From: a virus
Strand: one strand, 5' to 3'
Length of the DNA: 20,625 bases
Virus record (IMG/VR): IMGVR_UViG_3300042298_002849
Span: 1 to 20,625 of that record
Position numbers and translations under genes: made by a program. Each line of letters begins with the position of its first letter. The first letter of the stretch is position 1. Below are positions 6,067 to 20,625 of this stretch, in pieces. The notes beneath the pieces are model-generated. The model was not told the origin of the DNA. It saw only the letters and a program-made list of their open reading frames with translations, and ran no database searches.

Positions 6067-7422
6067 CTAGTACACCCTTCGCATTCCTCGCACCACACGC
6101 CCCGCACTGCCGCGCTCCACGGCATACCGGCGGTGCACCACATAGCCCAGCGCATCGGCCATATGGTCGTGGCCGGTCTCCTTGTCCGGCACCCCCTTGT
6201 CGTCGTATGCCTGCAGCTCCAGGCTCTCGATCGTCTTTCGGCACCTCGGATGAATCCAGAGGCGGGTCTGGCCGTGGCCGTTCTCTAGCAGTGCCTGCAC
6301 GGCCGCGACGCGGTCCCGGATCGGTGGGTTCGCCGCAGGTGACTGGTTGCTGATCCCGTAGCTCTGCAGGATCGCCACATCCGACCGGCTGGAATTGGTC
6401 GAACGGTTCGCACCCGAGGCGTCAGGATGGCCGAGGATTTGCGCCCGTGGGTAGCGGCTGCGGATCTCCTGCCCCATGGCATCGGTGTCGTGGGCACCGG
6501 CGATCTCATCCCAGACCCACAGCTGCCCCTTACGTTCGACTGCCAGCACGGCGTTGCAGTTGCCGACGTTGAAGTCACAACCCATCAGCAGGGCTTCATC
6601 GTCCAGGTCCGGCTCGTCGAATGCGACGACGTGCAGATCCCGCCGGAACCGGTCGTAGACCATCCCCGCTGTCAAATTTACAAACTCACCGTCGAGGTAG
6701 GCCCGCAGCAGGTTCGGATCGTAGTTGGCCTGGAGACGCTCGATGAAGTCCGGCGGCAGGTGTGGATTGTCGGTCGTGCGCATCCGCACCAGACGACGAT
6801 CCGCCCGGCCGTCTGCCTCATCTGAGGCAAACGTCTTCCACATCCACCGGAAGCCCTCCGGTGTCGAGGCTGCCGCGAACTGCCGGACGTTACCGGCCCT
6901 CAGGCGGCCGAGGATCTTGGGGAATGCCCGCGCTGCAATCGAGGGGGCGACGGTGTCGATCTCATCGGCCAGCACCCACGCGAGGTTTAGGCCAATGATC
7001 CGGGTCCAGTTCTCAAACGACCGGCACAGAATCTTCGTGGCCCCGCCCGGCAACATCAGGACGTATTCCGGCAGAGGTGACGACCGGAAGGTGTAGGGGA
7101 TGCCGTAGGACTCCAGGAAGCTGTCAAACTCCGGCAACCAGATGTCGCGGATCAGCGGCCCTGTGGGCTCCAGGACGGCGCCTTGAAAGCCAGGATTGAT
7201 CATCGCCATGGCAACCGCCTTGGCACATAGCGCATGGGTCTTGCCGGCGCCATAACCAGCGGAACACCCAAGGATCTCGACCTGCGAATCCTGAACGAAG
7301 TCCCGCTGTCGTGGGTGCAGATCGTCGATGATCGCCGCGAGGGTGGCATCAGCATCGAAAAAGGCAGCCTCCTCATCAAATGCGAGGAGACTGCCCGGAT
7401 CTTGACAGTCGAGCAGCCCCAT
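6067..7422 (-). CDS. Terminase large subunit
   Basis: A 451-residue phage packaging motor and nuclease. The ATPase half has Walker A AGYGAGKT (55-62) and Walker B VLADEID (150-156) followed by a coupling-type region around AAASTPEGF (183-191). The nuclease half has the RNase H-like first acidic strand MGCDFNVGN (280-288, Asp283), a second site in HPDASG, and a late Asp in GHDHMADALGYV. It pumps DNA into the procapsid through the portal and cuts the concatemer. The start is preceded by a one-base overlap with the upstream acidic gene (TGATG). A small terminase-like gene lies just upstream and the portal is downstream, the standard order apart from the inserted helicase-methyltransferase block. 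Confidence 0.93.
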   Translation of the reverse strand: MGLLDCQDPGSLLAFDEEAAFFDADATLAAIIDDLHPRQRDFVQDSQVEILGCSAGYGAGKTHALCAKAVAMAMINPGFQGAVLEPTGPLIRDIWLPEFDSFLESYGIPYTFRSSPLPEYVLMLPGGATKILCRSFENWTRIIGLNLAWVLADEIDTVAPSIAARAFPKILGRLRAGNVRQFAAASTPEGFRWMWKTFASDEADGRADRRLVRMRTTDNPHLPPDFIERLQANYDPNLLRAYLDGEFVNLTAGMVYDRFRRDLHVVAFDEPDLDDEALLMGCDFNVGNCNAVLAVERKGQLWVWDEIAGAHDTDAMGQEIRSRYPRAQILGHPDASGANRSTNSSRSDVAILQSYGISNQSPAANPPIRDRVAAVQALLENGHGQTRLWIHPRCRKTIESLELQAYDDKGVPDKETGHDHMADALGYVVHRRYAVERGSAGRVVRGMRRVY

Positions 7423-12674: not shown

Positions 12675-12706
12675 CCCCCACGGCCTGCCGGGAGCCTATC
12701 CCGGCA
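12675..12706 (+). repeat. Intercistronic hairpin element, copy 1
   Basis: Directly after a TGA stop come CCCCC, ACGGCCT and a hairpin with stem GCCGGGA (12687-12693), loop GCCTA and stem TCCCGGC (12699-12705). Bases 12679-12706 match 13423-13450 at 26 of 28 positions. There is no T-run, so this is not a classical terminator. Confidence 0.8.
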
Positions 12707-12732
12707 ACATTCTCTACCACTGCCCACCACCC

Positions 12733-12930
12733 ATGACCAAAGCCGAAACTGCCTACGCCGAGCAGCACGCTGCAGCCGCCGCGCTCCTCCATCAGCTCAG
12801 CAGCGCCCTGTTCGACATGCCGGCCCCCGACGGTGACACCCGCATCAACTGGGCCCACGTCGGCAGCGTGACCGAGATCCGCAGCCAGCTGGAGCAAACA
12901 CTGGCGTTCATGACCAACACCCAGGCCTGA
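12733..12930 (+). CDS. Small helical hypothetical protein
   Basis: A 65-residue protein (MTKAETAYAEQHAAAA to FMTNTQA), mostly helical, with an Ala-rich N-terminal helix and a second helix SVTEIRSQLEQTLAFM. No family recognised. It starts at an ATG preceded by CCCACCACCC. The hairpin element lies between it and the previous gene, and it is followed by a long C/A-rich leader before the AcrIII-1-like gene. Together with that gene it is enclosed by two near-identical copies of the hairpin element, which could make the pair an exchangeable cassette. Confidence 0.6.
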   Translation: MTKAETAYAEQHAAAAALLHQLSSALFDMPAPDGDTRINWAHVGSVTEIRSQLEQTLAFMTNTQA

Positions 12931-12970: not shown

Positions 12971-13414
12971 ATGACCAGATACCTCCTCAACACCACCGTT
13001 GTTCCCTGTGAGGGAGTGTGGGAAGTTTCCCGTCTTTACACGCCCCAGGACGCGCGTATGTACCTTGACCTTGGCTTTACTTCGGCCGTTGGGCACCAGT
13101 CCACGGCTGAAGTCATCTCGACTCTACTGGGGATTGATGTTTCGGTGAACAGAATCACCGTTGAACCTCAGGTTGGCGACATTCTTGTCTGCTTCAAGCT
13201 GAAGCAGAGGGCCCCAGAAGGGGTAATCCTCTCAAAAGAGCAGCTTGAGAGCCTTGGCTATGAATGGTTCTCAATGAAGCTTCGAGCTTCATCAATGCAC
13301 ACCCTTAATGGGCAGTTGGCCCATGAGGCCCATGAGGCCGAGAATCGTCGCAAGGAGGCGGCGATCAATGCCCGGATGGAGCGTCGAAATTGCATTGGCG
13401 GGCATCGAGACTGA
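12971..13414 (+). CDS. DUF1874 / AcrIII-1-like viral ring nuclease (type III anti-CRISPR candidate)
   Basis: A 147-residue protein whose first 105 residues match the STIV B116 / DUF1874 family. The members characterised as AcrIII-1 degrade cyclic tetra-adenylate (cA4), the second messenger of type III CRISPR systems. Seen here: an MTRYLLNT opening strand, the signature AVGHQST (His42), VNRI (59-62), the strand GDILVCFKL, and QRAPEG with Arg80 and Glu83. As I recall, SIRV1 AcrIII-1 uses His47, Arg85 and Glu88, and the spacing here (38 and 3) is identical. The C-terminal 40 residues (about 107-147) are a charged helical extension not in the short archaeal forms. By eye its base composition is a little less GC-rich than its neighbours. 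It likely blocks type III immunity in the host; family proteins also exist as host ring nucleases, but the phage context favours anti-CRISPR. Confidence 0.85.
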   Translation: MTRYLLNTTVVPCEGVWEVSRLYTPQDARMYLDLGFTSAVGHQSTAEVISTLLGIDVSVNRITVEPQVGDILVCFKLKQRAPEGVILSKEQLESLGYEWFSMKLRASSMHTLNGQLAHEAHEAENRRKEAAINARMERRNCIGGHRD

Positions 13415-13450
13415 CCCCCCCCCACGGCCCGCCGGGAGCCCATCCCGGCA
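13415..13450 (+). repeat. Intercistronic hairpin element, copy 2
   Basis: Follows the TGA stop of the AcrIII-1-like gene. A C9 run (13415-13423), ACGGCCC, then stem GCCGGGA (13431-13437), loop GCCCA, stem TCCCGGC (13443-13449). It differs from copy 1 at two pyrimidine positions, one just 5' of the stem and one in the loop, plus the longer C-run. Confidence 0.8.
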
Positions 13451-16644: not shown

Positions 16645-16835
16645 TCCACATCACAAGCAACGGCGGCTGGATCGGCCCGCTGTGCTGGTCGAACACCCTG
16701 CCTGCCTTCGTGGTCCCTGATTATCGATTCGCTGGCATCAGCAGCCGCCTGCAGCCCTGGGGCCGCACCTACTGGCACATGCCGGGCGAGACCTGTCGGC
16801 CGCTGCAGTACACCGTCACCGAGAGCTTCCAATGA
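16641..16835 (+). CDS. Small aromatic-rich hypothetical protein
   Basis: A 64-residue protein rich in Trp, Tyr and Pro (MIHITSNGGWIGPLCWSN to LQYTVTESFQ). It is likely a small beta structure. No family recognised. It overlaps both neighbours by four bases (ATGA at each end), which is good evidence that it is translated as part of the chain of coupled genes. Confidence 0.62.
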   Translation: MIHITSNGGWIGPLCWSNTLPAFVVPDYRFAGISSRLQPWGRTYWHMPGETCRPLQYTVTESFQ

Positions 16836-17311
16836 CCACCGACTTCCGCGCTGAACTGGAACGCCTCGTGAAGGCTTACGACGATCACGGCGGCAGGTGG
16901 CCCGACGACGACGTGCGGGCCCTGTATCAGGCTGTCAAGAAAGCCCGCGCCGCGCTGTCCGCCCCGGAGCAGGGGCCGACGGAGGCGGAGGTTGCAGACC
17001 TTGCAGAGGATCTGGAGTACCGGCGGCTGCCTCAAGACACATCCACCTGCCCTTCGTTTCTGATGGAGTTCGCCCGCGCCGTGCTCGCCCGCTGGGGCCG
17101 CCCTGCCGTCGAGCTGGTGCCGGTGAGCGAGCGGTTGCCGGGGCCGGAGGATTGCGACGACCAGGGGCGGTGCTGGTGGCTGGACCGACCGCTCAAGAAC
17201 GGCCCGGCCGCCTGGATGCTGAGGCGTCCGGATGACGGGATGCTGCTCCCGTTCATCGCCTGGGCTCCGCACTGGGCGATCCCCGTGCCGCAGGAGGGGG
17301 CCGATGGCTGA
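16832..17311 (+). CDS. Hypothetical protein with DUF551-like C-terminus
   Basis: A 159-residue protein in at least three modules. The first is an N-terminal helix (MTTDFRAELERLVKAYDDHGG). The second is a middle helical part with PTEAEVADLAEDLEYR and FLMEFARAVLARWGRP. The third is a C-terminal part with VPVSERLPGPEDCDDQGRCW and ending in IAWAPHWAIPVP. The SERLP to PHW pattern is DUF551-like. Similar mosaics occur, to my memory, in Synechococcus phages and mobile regions; the function is unknown. Four-base overlap with the previous gene and eight-base overlap with the next. Confidence 0.68.
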   Translation: MTTDFRAELERLVKAYDDHGGRWPDDDVRALYQAVKKARAALSAPEQGPTEAEVADLAEDLEYRRLPQDTSTCPSFLMEFARAVLARWGRPAVELVPVSERLPGPEDCDDQGRCWWLDRPLKNGPAAWMLRRPDDGMLLPFIAWAPHWAIPVPQEGADG

Positions 17312-17534: not shown

Positions 17535-17812
17535 GCATTGAGCCCACCACCCAACGCGGCATCGCCTGCCCCGTGTGCGGATCGGATCAGAGCAAAGTCA
17601 ACGAGACTCGGCATCTTGCAAGCCACAACTGCATCCGCCGCCGCAAAATCTGCCGTAACTGCCGTGCTAGGTACACCACCTACGAAACACTGACGCCCCC
17701 GTCCGTCATCAATCAGATGGCCGACCATGCGGCCTCTCATCTGGCTGGTCGTGCTGAACTCGATCCGTTCCTGCAGGATCTGCAGGATCTGATTGACAAG
17801 CATAGGGCATGA
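17531..17812 (+). CDS. NrdR-type zinc-ribbon protein without ATP-cone
   Basis: A 93-residue protein. Residues 13-53 copy the zinc ribbon of the NrdR repressor: CPVC (13-16), an intervening RRRKI stretch, CRNC (41-44), then RARYTTYET. In NrdR this domain binds promoters of ribonucleotide reductase genes and an ATP-cone follows. Here the remaining 40 residues are a short helical tail with no ATP-cone. It may be a small DNA-binding regulator; direct nucleotide sensing is unlikely. It closes the chain of overlapping small genes and is followed by the third copy of the hairpin element. Confidence 0.78.
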   Translation: MSIEPTTQRGIACPVCGSDQSKVNETRHLASHNCIRRRKICRNCRARYTTYETLTPPSVINQMADHAASHLAGRAELDPFLQDLQDLIDKHRA

Positions 17813-17849
17813 CCCCGCGGCCCGCCGGAGCCGCACCCAATCCGGCGAC
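17813..17849 (+). repeat. Intercistronic hairpin element, copy 3 (diverged)
   Basis: After the TGA stop: CCCCGCGGCC, stem CGCCGGA (17823-17829), an 11-base loop beginning GCC, stem TCCGGCG (17841-17847). It keeps the layout and several bases of copies 1 and 2 but has a longer loop. Confidence 0.65.
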
Positions 17850-17870
17850 CATCCACACGCATTCTCATCA

Positions 17871-18470
17871 ATGGCCATCATCAAAGGCACCGCCCGCGCC
17901 GACGTGCTCACCGGCACCGCGCAGGCGGATCAGTTCTACGTCAACCACACAGGGGACATCATCGTCGGCGGCAACAGTCAGGACCAGGTGCTCTCCACCC
18001 TGGCGTCGTACCAGCTGCAGGACGGAATCGGCAGCCTCGTGCTGGGCTCCGGCGCTGATGTGGGCATCGGCAACGCTGGGGCCAACAGGATCGGCGGCAA
18101 CCAGCGCAACAACCTCCTCGACGGTGGCGCCGGCATGGACGAGCTGACCGGCGGCGGCGGTGCGGACGTGTTCCGCTTCAGCCATGCCGGTCAGGCCCAC
18201 GCTGACTTCGTCACCGACTTCCGGGCCGGGATCGATCGGATCGCCATCAACGGCGCAGCCTTCGGCCTGGCGGCTGGGACTGCCGTGGGTTACGAGCTGA
18301 ACCGGCAGGCGACTGGCGCCGGGCCGACGTTCCTGCGCTACGGCAGCCAGGGGACGGCCCAGGCGATCTACTTCGACCGGGACGGTATCGGGGCTGAGAA
18401 GGCGCAGCTGATCTGCACTCTGCAGGGCTTCGCTGGTGCCACCTCGGCGGCTGATTTCGTCATCATCTGA
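17871..18470 (+). CDS. RTX-like calcium-binding repeat protein
   Basis: A 199-residue protein. It starts with IKGTARADVLTGTAQADQFY (4-23), the unit that opens many cyanobacterial RTX domains. It goes on to a beta-helix-like middle with LASYQLQDGIGSLVLGSGA, a glycine-rich nonapeptide stretch (NLLDGGAGMDELTGGGGADVF, about 81-101) and a C-terminal part like the type I secretion end of RTX proteins (DFRAGIDRIAING). Calcium would fold the repeats. It has no signal peptide. In a phage it could be a virion surface or adhesion component or captured host cargo; neither can be told from sequence. The start at 17871 gives the canonical opening. Confidence 0.78.
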   Translation: MAIIKGTARADVLTGTAQADQFYVNHTGDIIVGGNSQDQVLSTLASYQLQDGIGSLVLGSGADVGIGNAGANRIGGNQRNNLLDGGAGMDELTGGGGADVFRFSHAGQAHADFVTDFRAGIDRIAINGAAFGLAAGTAVGYELNRQATGAGPTFLRYGSQGTAQAIYFDRDGIGAEKAQLICTLQGFAGATSAADFVII

Positions 18471-18476
18471 GGCCAG

Positions 18477-18512
18477 CGGGGGGGGGCGTGACGGACTGTT
18501 GCGCCCTCCCCT
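18477..18512 (+). other. G9 run and possible hairpin after RTX gene
   Basis: A run of nine G (18478-18486) follows the RTX stop by seven bases and can pair, with one G-T pair, to CGCCCTCCCC at about 18502-18511. There is no T-run. It may be a weak terminator or stability hairpin separating the RTX gene from the sigma operon. Confidence 0.3.
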
Positions 18513-18540
18513 TGGCAACGGTGGGACCCAGTGTTACGAT
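18512..18540 (+). promoter_or_regulatory. Sigma-70 type promoter for the sigma-factor operon
   Basis: TTGGCA (18512-18517), a 17-base spacer and TACGAT (18535-18540) form the best vegetative promoter in the window. Transcription should begin near 18547, giving a leader of about 34 bases that contains CCACCACC before the ATG at 18581. It looks readable by the host's principal sigma factor. Confidence 0.7.
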
Positions 18541-18580
18541 CAAGTCATGGGGCACGACGCCCCGCCACCACCATTCACCA

Positions 18581-18769
18581 ATGACCGCCACCCTTTGCCT
18601 TGCAGCGACGCTGCTGGCCATCCTCACCATCCCTGTGCTGATCCTGCTGTGGGCGACGGAGTCCAGGGAGCAGCGGATTCGCCGCTGGCGTGCTAATGGC
18701 ATGAGCCAGCAGGCGATTGCTGACCGCCTCGGCATCACCCGCTACGCCGTCCGCCGCGCCCTTGCCTGA
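18581..18769 (+). CDS. Membrane-anchored helix-turn-helix mini-protein
   Basis: A 62-residue protein made of only two parts. Residues 2-25 are a strongly hydrophobic membrane segment (CLAATLLAILTIPVLILLW). Residues 26-62 are a resolvase-type helix-turn-helix: REQRIRRWRANGMSQQAIADRLGITRYAVRRALA written in pieces as REQRIRRWRANG, MSQQAIADRLG, ITRYAVRRALA. It would hold a DNA-binding head at the inner membrane face. It is the first gene after a strong promoter and lies three bases before the first sigma factor, so it probably regulates or accompanies them. The start at 18581 follows a CCACCACC leader. I know no characterised family of this exact form. Confidence 0.72.
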   Translation: MTATLCLAATLLAILTIPVLILLWATESREQRIRRWRANGMSQQAIADRLGITRYAVRRALA

Positions 18770-18772
18770 GCC

Positions 18773-19624
18773 ATGGCCAACCTCATCACCGCGGCGCTGC
18801 GGGTGCCGCTGCTGCATCGAGATCAGGAGATCGCCCTAGGCCGGCAGGTGCAGGCCTGGATGGCCATCCGCGACACAGAACCCACCACCGCCGCCGATCG
18901 CCGCACCTGGCGTCGTGGCATCCGCGCTAGGGATCAACTGGTCGTTCATAACCTGCGCTTTGCCTATCGGTTCATCAGCCGCCATCTGCGGTGCTGCAAG
19001 ACCCTCGACCGTGAGGACCTGCTGCAGGCTGCCACGATTGGACTGACACGTGCCGCGGAACTGTTCAAGCCGGAGCACGGCTGTCGGTTCGTGACCTACG
19101 CGACCCTGTGGATCCGGCAGTCTGTGGATCGTGAGATCTGGATGGCAGATGATCCGATCCGGATCCCGGCCAACCTGCACACCATGAAGGCCAAGATCGG
19201 CAGCCTGACCAGTGCTGGCATGAGTCCAGAGGATGCGATGGCGGCAGCATTGCAGGGCCGCACGACACCGCCGGAACTGATCGAGGCAGCACTATCCGTC
19301 ACCCGCCCCCTGGCATCACTCGACGGCCCGGTGCGCGACTGCCCGGACCTCAACCTGCATGAGACGATCGCTGATGGTGGCCCGTTGCCGCTGGATCTGG
19401 TCGCTGATGAGATCGGCACCGAACTGGTACAGGTGCATGTCCTGCGGCTCAGGGACCTACAGCGCGACATCATCGAGCGGGTCTATGGGTTCAACACAGA
19501 ACCGCAACCGATGACCGCCATCGCCCGCGAAACCAACCGGAGCCGACAGGCAGTGAAACAGATCCACGACCGCGCTATATCTCAACTGGAGCGAATGATC
19601 AACGTTGACCCTGCCATCCAATGA
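18773..19624 (+). CDS. RpoD-family sigma-70 factor (first of pair)
   Basis: A 283-residue sigma factor. Region 1.2 is seen as VPLLHRDQEIALGRQVQAW (11-29), as in cyanobacterial group 2 sigmas. Region 2 covers about 54-137: VVHNLRFAYRFISRHL, DLLQAATIGLTRA, FVTYATLWIRQSVDREIW, then IRIPANLHT. Region 3 follows, and region 4 is at about 222-275, with a helix-turn-helix in MTAIARETNRSRQAVKQIHD. It should bind host core RNA polymerase and direct it to a chosen promoter set. The large region 1.1 of the principal sigma is absent. The next gene, a second sigma, overlaps its stop by four bases. Confidence 0.92.
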   Translation: MANLITAALRVPLLHRDQEIALGRQVQAWMAIRDTEPTTAADRRTWRRGIRARDQLVVHNLRFAYRFISRHLRCCKTLDREDLLQAATIGLTRAAELFKPEHGCRFVTYATLWIRQSVDREIWMADDPIRIPANLHTMKAKIGSLTSAGMSPEDAMAAALQGRTTPPELIEAALSVTRPLASLDGPVRDCPDLNLHETIADGGPLPLDLVADEIGTELVQVHVLRLRDLQRDIIERVYGFNTEPQPMTAIARETNRSRQAVKQIHDRAISQLERMINVDPAIQ

Positions 19625-20463
19625 CCACCACCGTCCACATTTCCCACGGCTATCAGACCTTCATGGATGCCGTGAAGCGCTATAAGCTGCTGACGGCAGA
19701 GGAGGAGATCCTACTGGCCCGCAAGATTGCCAAGGGGTCGAAGCGTGCGCACGAGCGGATGATGCTGTGCAATTTGCGACTGGTTGCCAAGATTGCAAGC
19801 ACCATCTTTCATCGTCGCCGGCCGCAGATGCTGACGATTGAGGATCTGTTCCAGGCTGGTGTCTTCGGCCTGAGTCGTGCCGTCAGCGGTTGGGATCCTG
19901 AGCGCGGCTATAAGTTCTCGACGTATGCCTACTGGTGGATTCAGCAGGCGATCAATCGAGAGCTGATGTATCAGGACGGTGCGATCAGGCTGAAGACCAG
20001 ACCTCAGCGGTTGCTGTCGCAGGTGTCGACATGGATGGCCCGCAATAGCCAGCAGCAGCCGACGCTACGGGATGCTGTCGATGCGTTGGGACTGGACTAC
20101 GACGAGGTGCTGGGATACATCAGCGCCAGCATCGGGCCGGTGAGCCTCGACAAGGTGATCGGCGACAGCGACGACCTGGACCTAGGGAGCGTGCTGCAGG
20201 GCGACGCTGACCCGTCGGACTATGCCGAGGCCATGGAGCTATGCGGGAGGGTGCATGATGCGTTGGATGCGTTGGAGCCAGAAGAGGCTCATGCGATACG
20301 GGCAACCTATGGAATCTGCACTGATCACGATGCGATGTCGATCCGAGAGTATGTCAGGGAGCATGACGTGACGCAATTCAAGGCCGAAAGGCGAATCAGG
20401 GGTGGGATTGTAAAGCTCAAAAGACTTCTTGCATCAACCACGCAATCTTTGAGCGCGACGTAG
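19621..20463 (+). CDS. Sigma-70 family factor with atypical region 4 (second of pair)
   Basis: A 280-residue sigma factor. Region 2 is well kept at about 45-127: MMLCNLRLVAKIAS, IEDLFQAGVFGLSRAV, YKFSTYAYWWIQQAINREL, then IRLKTRPQR. The C-terminal third (about 208-271, LDALEPEEAHAIRATYGI, then MSIREYVREHDVTQFK and RRIRGGIVKLKRLL) has region 4 layout, but the helix-turn-helix is far from consensus, so its -35 recognition should differ or be weak. It is only distantly similar to the sigma encoded just upstream, so the pair is not a recent duplication. The ATG overlaps the first sigma's stop, giving coupled and perhaps equal synthesis. A late-gene role is plausible. Confidence 0.88.
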   Translation: MTTTVHISHGYQTFMDAVKRYKLLTAEEEILLARKIAKGSKRAHERMMLCNLRLVAKIASTIFHRRRPQMLTIEDLFQAGVFGLSRAVSGWDPERGYKFSTYAYWWIQQAINRELMYQDGAIRLKTRPQRLLSQVSTWMARNSQQQPTLRDAVDALGLDYDEVLGYISASIGPVSLDKVIGDSDDLDLGSVLQGDADPSDYAEAMELCGRVHDALDALEPEEAHAIRATYGICTDHDAMSIREYVREHDVTQFKAERRIRGGIVKLKRLLASTTQSLSAT

Positions 20464-20596
20464 CGTCCTGATCAGCCAGCAGGACGGCATATTCTAAGAC
20501 GCCGTTGAAGTCGCCGCGGTCGTGCATTTCTCGGAGGCAACGCTTATGACCTTCGGCGATGAACTGATCTTCCACACGATACACAAGGGGTTTCAT
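20417..20596 (-). CDS. Small hypothetical protein, convergent with sigma gene
   Basis: A 59-residue protein (MKPLVYRVEDQFIAEGHK to IAWLMQEVF), predicted largely helical, with charged first half and an Ala/Leu segment VLEYAVLLADQ. No family recognised. Its last 47 bases overlap the end of the second sigma gene on the other strand. ATG at 20596 is preferred over a GTG two codons upstream. It is the only gene seen at the right edge and may be the last of another leftward operon entering from outside the window. Confidence 0.5.
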   Translation of the reverse strand: MKPLVYRVEDQFIAEGHKRCLREMHDRGDFNGVLEYAVLLADQDATSRSKIAWLMQEVF

Positions 20597-20625
20597 GTGC
20601 ACGCCTGAAGGATGCCCTAGGTTGC

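Follow-up and report, generated by a model that had tools for sequence, protein, structure and literature searches.

A probable AcrIII-1 ring nuclease of a likely freshwater cyanophage and its relatives beside type III CRISPR loci

Ring nucleases of the DUF1874 family are encoded both by viruses and by cells. Characterised members act as dimers, cutting cyclic tetra-adenylate (cA4) by means of an active-site histidine, and the variants SIRV1 H47A and Csx1-Crn2 H495A are inactive (PMC7213978, PMC7293037). The viral form, AcrIII-1, is exemplified by SIRV1 gp29 (6scf) and AFV3-109 (2j6b), and the cellular form, Crn2, which belongs to the same family and includes Csx1-Crn2 of Marinitoga (8y7f), is linked to type III CRISPR systems. 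In a 2025 survey, for which 38,742 complete genomes were downloaded, 36 of 28,114 phage genomes had AcrIII-1 and just 7 genomes of prokaryotes had Crn2 (PMC12409355). No paper naming AcrIII-1 together with cyanophages was found in the literature searched.

The DNA analysed here, referred to as the window, is a linear fragment of 20,625 bases that makes up an entire IMG/VR record. One of its ORFs (start ATG, stop TGA; Table 1) encodes a protein of 147 aa, residues 4-98 of which match PF08960 (STIV_B116-like, formerly DUF1874) at E=1.5e-23 and 83.3 bits, the curated cut-off being 26 bits. PHROG 5063 was matched at E=1.2e-19, and a sequence search of the PDB retrieved 2j6b at E=3.9e-19 as well as the solved structures of STIV B116, SIRV1 ORF114/AcrIII-1 (6scf) and Csx1-Crn2. 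These PF08960, PHROG and 2j6b scores put the match to DUF1874 beyond chance. No NCBIfam family was obtained for the protein, and a scan of viral contigs with its sequence alone yielded no close relatives. The signature claimed in the earlier note is present in full, with GHQST at residues 41-45, VNR at 59-61 and QRAPEG at 79-84. In an alignment with nine viral homologues, which took in proteins of Synechococcus, Microcystis, Vibrio, Hydrogenobaculum, Fusobacterium and archaeal viruses, the columns of His42, Arg80 and Glu83 were invariant. The His-Arg distance is 38 residues in every member matching the pattern, apart from three with insertions. The distances in the window protein (38 residues from His42 to Arg80 and 3 from Arg80 to Glu83) are the same as those of His47, Arg85 and Glu88 in SIRV1 gp29, as had been claimed; Arg85 and Glu88 are presumably its remaining catalytic positions, in agreement with the sequence alignment to the PDB proteins. 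Its active-site residue H47 has been confirmed (PMC7213978).

An AlphaFold2 (AF2) model of the single chain was confident (mean pLDDT 88), and all 16 PDB matches found with Foldseek at E<=0.001 were DUF1874 structures, among them AFV3-109, the cA4-bound AcrIII-1 6scf, STIV B116, Csx1-Crn2 and ORF114a. Profile and fold thus both bear out the assignment that had been proposed from the letters of the DNA. The protein is a clear DUF1874/AcrIII-1 member, and its gene is a further member of the known AcrIII-1 family. A different role, in DNA binding or transcription, is implied by the database names of some relatives ("putative DNA binding protein" for gp35 of S-CBWM1, "DNA binding protein" for AFV homologues), but these names predate or ignore the work on AcrIII-1, and both the fold and the residues fit the cA4-bound enzyme 6scf, so that such a role is hardly credible. 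The window protein shares with the archaeal AcrIII-1 proteins the DUF1874 fold, the His/Arg/Glu spacing and a viral origin, at 37-42% identity to the AFV proteins and about 20% to 6scf in structural alignment; it differs from them in coming from a cyanobacterial tailed phage and in its additional helix, about 34 residues long, at the C-terminus.

Table 1. Positions of the features of the window discussed in the text
Feature	Position	Strand	Remarks
Terminase large subunit	6067..7422	-	PHROG terminase; places the contig among cyano-siphoviruses
Intergenic hairpin GCCGGGAGCCTATCCCGGC, left cassette edge	12687..12705	+	Folds at -16.8 kcal/mol, z -2.3
Small ORF of 66 aa with ATGACC start, leading gene of the variable cassette	12730..12930	+	Absent from the siblings
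Predicted AcrIII-1/DUF1874 ring nuclease gene	12971..13414	+	PF08960; PDB matches by sequence and fold; invariant catalytic columns
C-terminal extension, single long predicted helix at residues 109-142	13292..13411	+	AF2 model
Intergenic hairpin GCCGGGAGCCCATCCCGGC, right cassette edge	13431..13449	+	Sibling alignment resumes at 13449
Small phage gene, 5' end in siblings matched by G212 spacer, window version diverged	16832..17311	+	Spacer match

The protein extends about 44 residues past the DUF1874 core, and the AF2 pLDDT is approximately 87-96 over residues 111-140, falling to 60 at the end. The extension that the earlier note had singled out is therefore real in the sequence, but it is not the only one of its kind: tails of at least 27 residues beyond the core occur in several phage DUF1874 proteins (27-32 residues in other phage proteins, about 100 in one). 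The three DUF1874 copies of the likely host family, described below, have only 4-8 residues at this position. Among the homologous loci compared, no relatives of the residues after approximately 103 were detected. Homology of the tail to those of the viral proteins L197, L199, L223 and L224 was considered and rejected, as 194 of 376 scored shuffles equalled the tail-profile score. The long helix is atypical and, judging from the model, could change the function. It might cover the active site or link dimers into larger assemblies, in which case the protein would be a cA4 sponge with weak turnover; cyclic-nucleotide sponges of phages have been described (PMC12409355), and the characterised small proteins are missing this confidently predicted helix. 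All three catalytic residues are kept, however, and retention of His42 would be needless for a sponge, which renders this alternative to an active ring nuclease very unlikely.

That the gene lies in a phage gene block, and that the phage infects cyanobacteria, had been proposed before and was supported by its surroundings. The terminase is 64-69% identical to those of the siphoviruses S-H1 and KBS-S-2A of Synechococcus and MED4-184, P-HS2 and MED4-117 of Prochlorococcus, and 68% identical to a copy in a cyanobacterial MAG. The AcrIII-1 gene is located upstream of a block of recombination genes (DUF7736, exonuclease VIII-like, Rad52 and SSB), and the viral nature of the window is supported by the genes of the terminase, a Rad52-type recombinase and a VapE-like primase. 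The terminase relatives and the phage recombination block make the cyanophage label sound, and a freshwater picocyanobacterium is the likely host. The gene lies in a fragment of a phage genome, and no cas genes were present among the scanned window proteins, in contrast to Crn2, which is encoded within a chromosomal type III locus.

Three sibling phages (IMG/VR 3300042560_001019, 3300044733_002667 and 3300049595_002668) are about 91-92% identical in DNA to the window across many kilobases. Their alignment to the window stops at 12739 and starts again at 13449 in two of them; in the third, the corresponding points are 12418 and 13442. No DUF1874 match was found anywhere in the three records, the longest of which is 42.6 kb. 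The cassette that is variable between these phages consists of the 66-aa ORF, for which Pfam and PHROG searches gave no family, and the AcrIII-1 gene, and is flanked by two copies of GCCGGGAGCC(T/C)ATCCCGGC, at 12687 and 13431; the chance expectation of this hairpin motif in the window is 0.02. Two siblings have one hairpin copy and one different small ORF at the site of the cassette. A search of Rfam gave no match for the hairpins. The simplest reading of these sequences is that the cassette is exchanged by recombination between repeated hairpins, and in this hairpin-bounded form the AcrIII-1 gene seems to have arrived by a recent gain or exchange. Low G+C by itself was set aside as proof of transfer, since two neighbouring genes are also at about 55%.

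The hairpin gGCCCGCCGGGAGCCYATCCCGGCa has exact copies in 103 stretches of viral contigs (L224:5856 and L306:4652-5129 are among the sites), typically in the gap that separates a stop codon from the following ATG and at times repeated two or three times along a row of small genes. Its carriers include G+C-rich, cyanophage-like contigs as well as A+T-rich ones. The nearest match among cultured cyanophages lies between genes of Synechococcus phage S-H1 and covers 82% of the query at 87% identity. Elsewhere in the window, positions 17816-20625 are 99.5% identical to the sibling L072 and the remainder about 92%, a pattern that points to a mosaic genome whose right end was recently exchanged. This part contains two tandem, overlapping genes for sigma-70-type factors (18773-19624 and 19621-20463), unusual for a phage of such size, and immediately ahead of the pair an RTX calcium-binding-repeat protein is encoded at 17793-18470.

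The likely host family was sampled through 300 genomes of the family to which the terminase-matched MAG belongs. DUF1874 was detected above the cut-off in three of these (G209, G212 and G239), and in all three a Cas10 gene is located on the same contig, at a distance of 9-25 kb, with the GGDD cyclase motif kept. Strong Cas10 matches (E<1e-10) were obtained in nine of the 300 genomes, and the chance that all three DUF1874 genomes would have Cas10 is about 2e-5 (hypergeometric sum). RAMP genes are present in these DUF1874/type III loci, and CARF-HEPN ribonucleases (TIGR02710) in those of G209 and G212. One of 386 genomes of the phylum (G350) also has DUF1874 above the cut-off; it was not used as a host copy, since its neighbourhood looks prophage-type from a reading of its ORFs. 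Two weak matches, G287 in the family (below the cut-off) and G381 in the phylum, were left out of the counts. The earlier note had described cyanobacteria as rich in type III systems, which does not hold for the likely host family, with strong Cas10 matches in about 3% of the genomes. The check that it had proposed, for type III CRISPR in the predicted host, gave a type III link in the host family, with Cas10 near all three of its DUF1874 copies.

In a maximum-likelihood tree, the window protein was grouped with the three host copies (support 92/95), and this group was nested in a clade (99/97) with the viral proteins L197, L199, L223, L224 and that of S-CBWM1. In this tree, the sister group of the window gene is formed by the type III-linked DUF1874 genes of the likely host family. 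Its nearest neighbours are accordingly three chromosomal copies beside Cas10, as in Crn2, from which the window gene differs in being phage-borne and part of a phage cassette; the host copies are also without the C-terminal helix. Two of them (L153 and L154, of G212 and G239) have a His-Arg distance of 47 residues instead of the 38 of the window protein, with an insert ahead of the His, and possibly form a distinct subgroup of Crn2. In two of the type III loci, proteins of 605 aa (L171:13032-14846) and 586 aa (L172:8313-10070) adjoin the CARF-HEPN genes; neither had a Pfam or NCBIfam match, and they are possible new accessory genes.

From the stretches of G209, G212 and G239, 84 spacers were extracted. 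One of them, in G212, lies a few kilobases upstream of a type III-B operon with Cmr1, Cas10/Cmr2, Cmr4, Cmr5 and Cmr6. It agrees with phages L078/L079 in 30 of 30 bases and with the sibling L073 in 30 of 31, and it runs antisense to the coding strand of the phage gene, the orientation that RNA targeting by type III systems requires. The idea that this spacer also matches the window was rejected, since its best ungapped alignment there agrees at 23 of 40 positions, as many as the mean of shuffled spacers. Comparison of the window DNA with the 300 host-family genomes gave mainly matches to common Rad52, primase and SSB genes and no spacer evidence. The sequences therefore point to type III immunity in the host family that is directed at this phage group, though not at the exact phage of the window.

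The scarcity of strong Cas10 in the sampled host family might suggest that the protein acts on another cyclic-oligonucleotide signal, for instance, that of a CBASS-like or minimal-CRISPR-polymerase pathway, and not on type III CRISPR. Such a target is highly improbable, given that a type III Cas10 is near DUF1874 in all three carriers of the family and that a sibling phage is targeted by a spacer linked to a type III-B operon; in addition, characterised members prefer cA4 (PMC7293037).

Taken together, the window gene very probably encodes an AcrIII-1 ring nuclease by which a siphovirus of freshwater cyanobacteria would remove the cA4 of type III CRISPR. This role is favoured by the PF08960 and PDB matches, the invariant catalytic columns, the fold, the cyanophage terminase, the type III linkage in the host, the tree grouping and the sibling-directed spacer; it is weakened by the rarity of type III in the sampled family, by the spacer having no match above chance in the window and by the atypical C-terminal helix. 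In the proposed course of events, a type III-B complex of the host would detect phage RNA, upon which Cas10 would make cA4. By analogy with the characterised family, the predicted homodimer would bind cA4 in a pocket between the subunits, where His42, with Arg80 and Glu83, would help to cut it into linear di-adenylates. The messenger would thus be removed before the CARF ribonucleases are activated, with a presumed effect on infection.

Related proteins are encoded by larger cyanobacterial phages. Gp35 of S-CBWM1 and the DUF1874 proteins of the MaMV phages belong to the same family and have the catalytic residues kept, but they are about 30% identical to the window protein, come from genomes of 139-182 kb and have no long tail. 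The annotated start of gp35 (L002:2501-2851) looks too late, an ATG at 2501 restoring the N-terminus of DUF1874; from its sequence it is a candidate for a second cyanophage AcrIII-1, in a cultured phage. A DUF1874 protein is encoded by MaMV phages CH01 (protein 80L, L006:2384-2707), CH02, DL01, DL02 and DH01. Type III-B spacers directed at MaMV phages have been described in Microcystis aeruginosa FACHB-524, in a paper from which the name DUF1874 is absent (PMC11855584). These phages and FACHB-524 form a ready cultured pair for testing.

In conclusion, the new details are a cyanobacterial setting with corresponding copies in host and phage, presence and absence of the gene within one phage group, and spacer evidence. 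A bolder and at present unlikely idea is that the C-terminal helix gives the protein a new working mode, through higher-order assembly on cA4 or docking on a host or CRISPR partner, and that this AcrIII-1 variant, with a function of its own, is carried on hairpin-bounded cassettes between cyanophages and the type III loci of hosts. Because of the sister copies in phage and host, the presence or absence of the cassette in siblings and the type III-B-linked spacer, cA4-based immunity of cyanobacteria and its erasure by viruses are now directly testable, in a host setting in which this arms race had previously only been guessed at.
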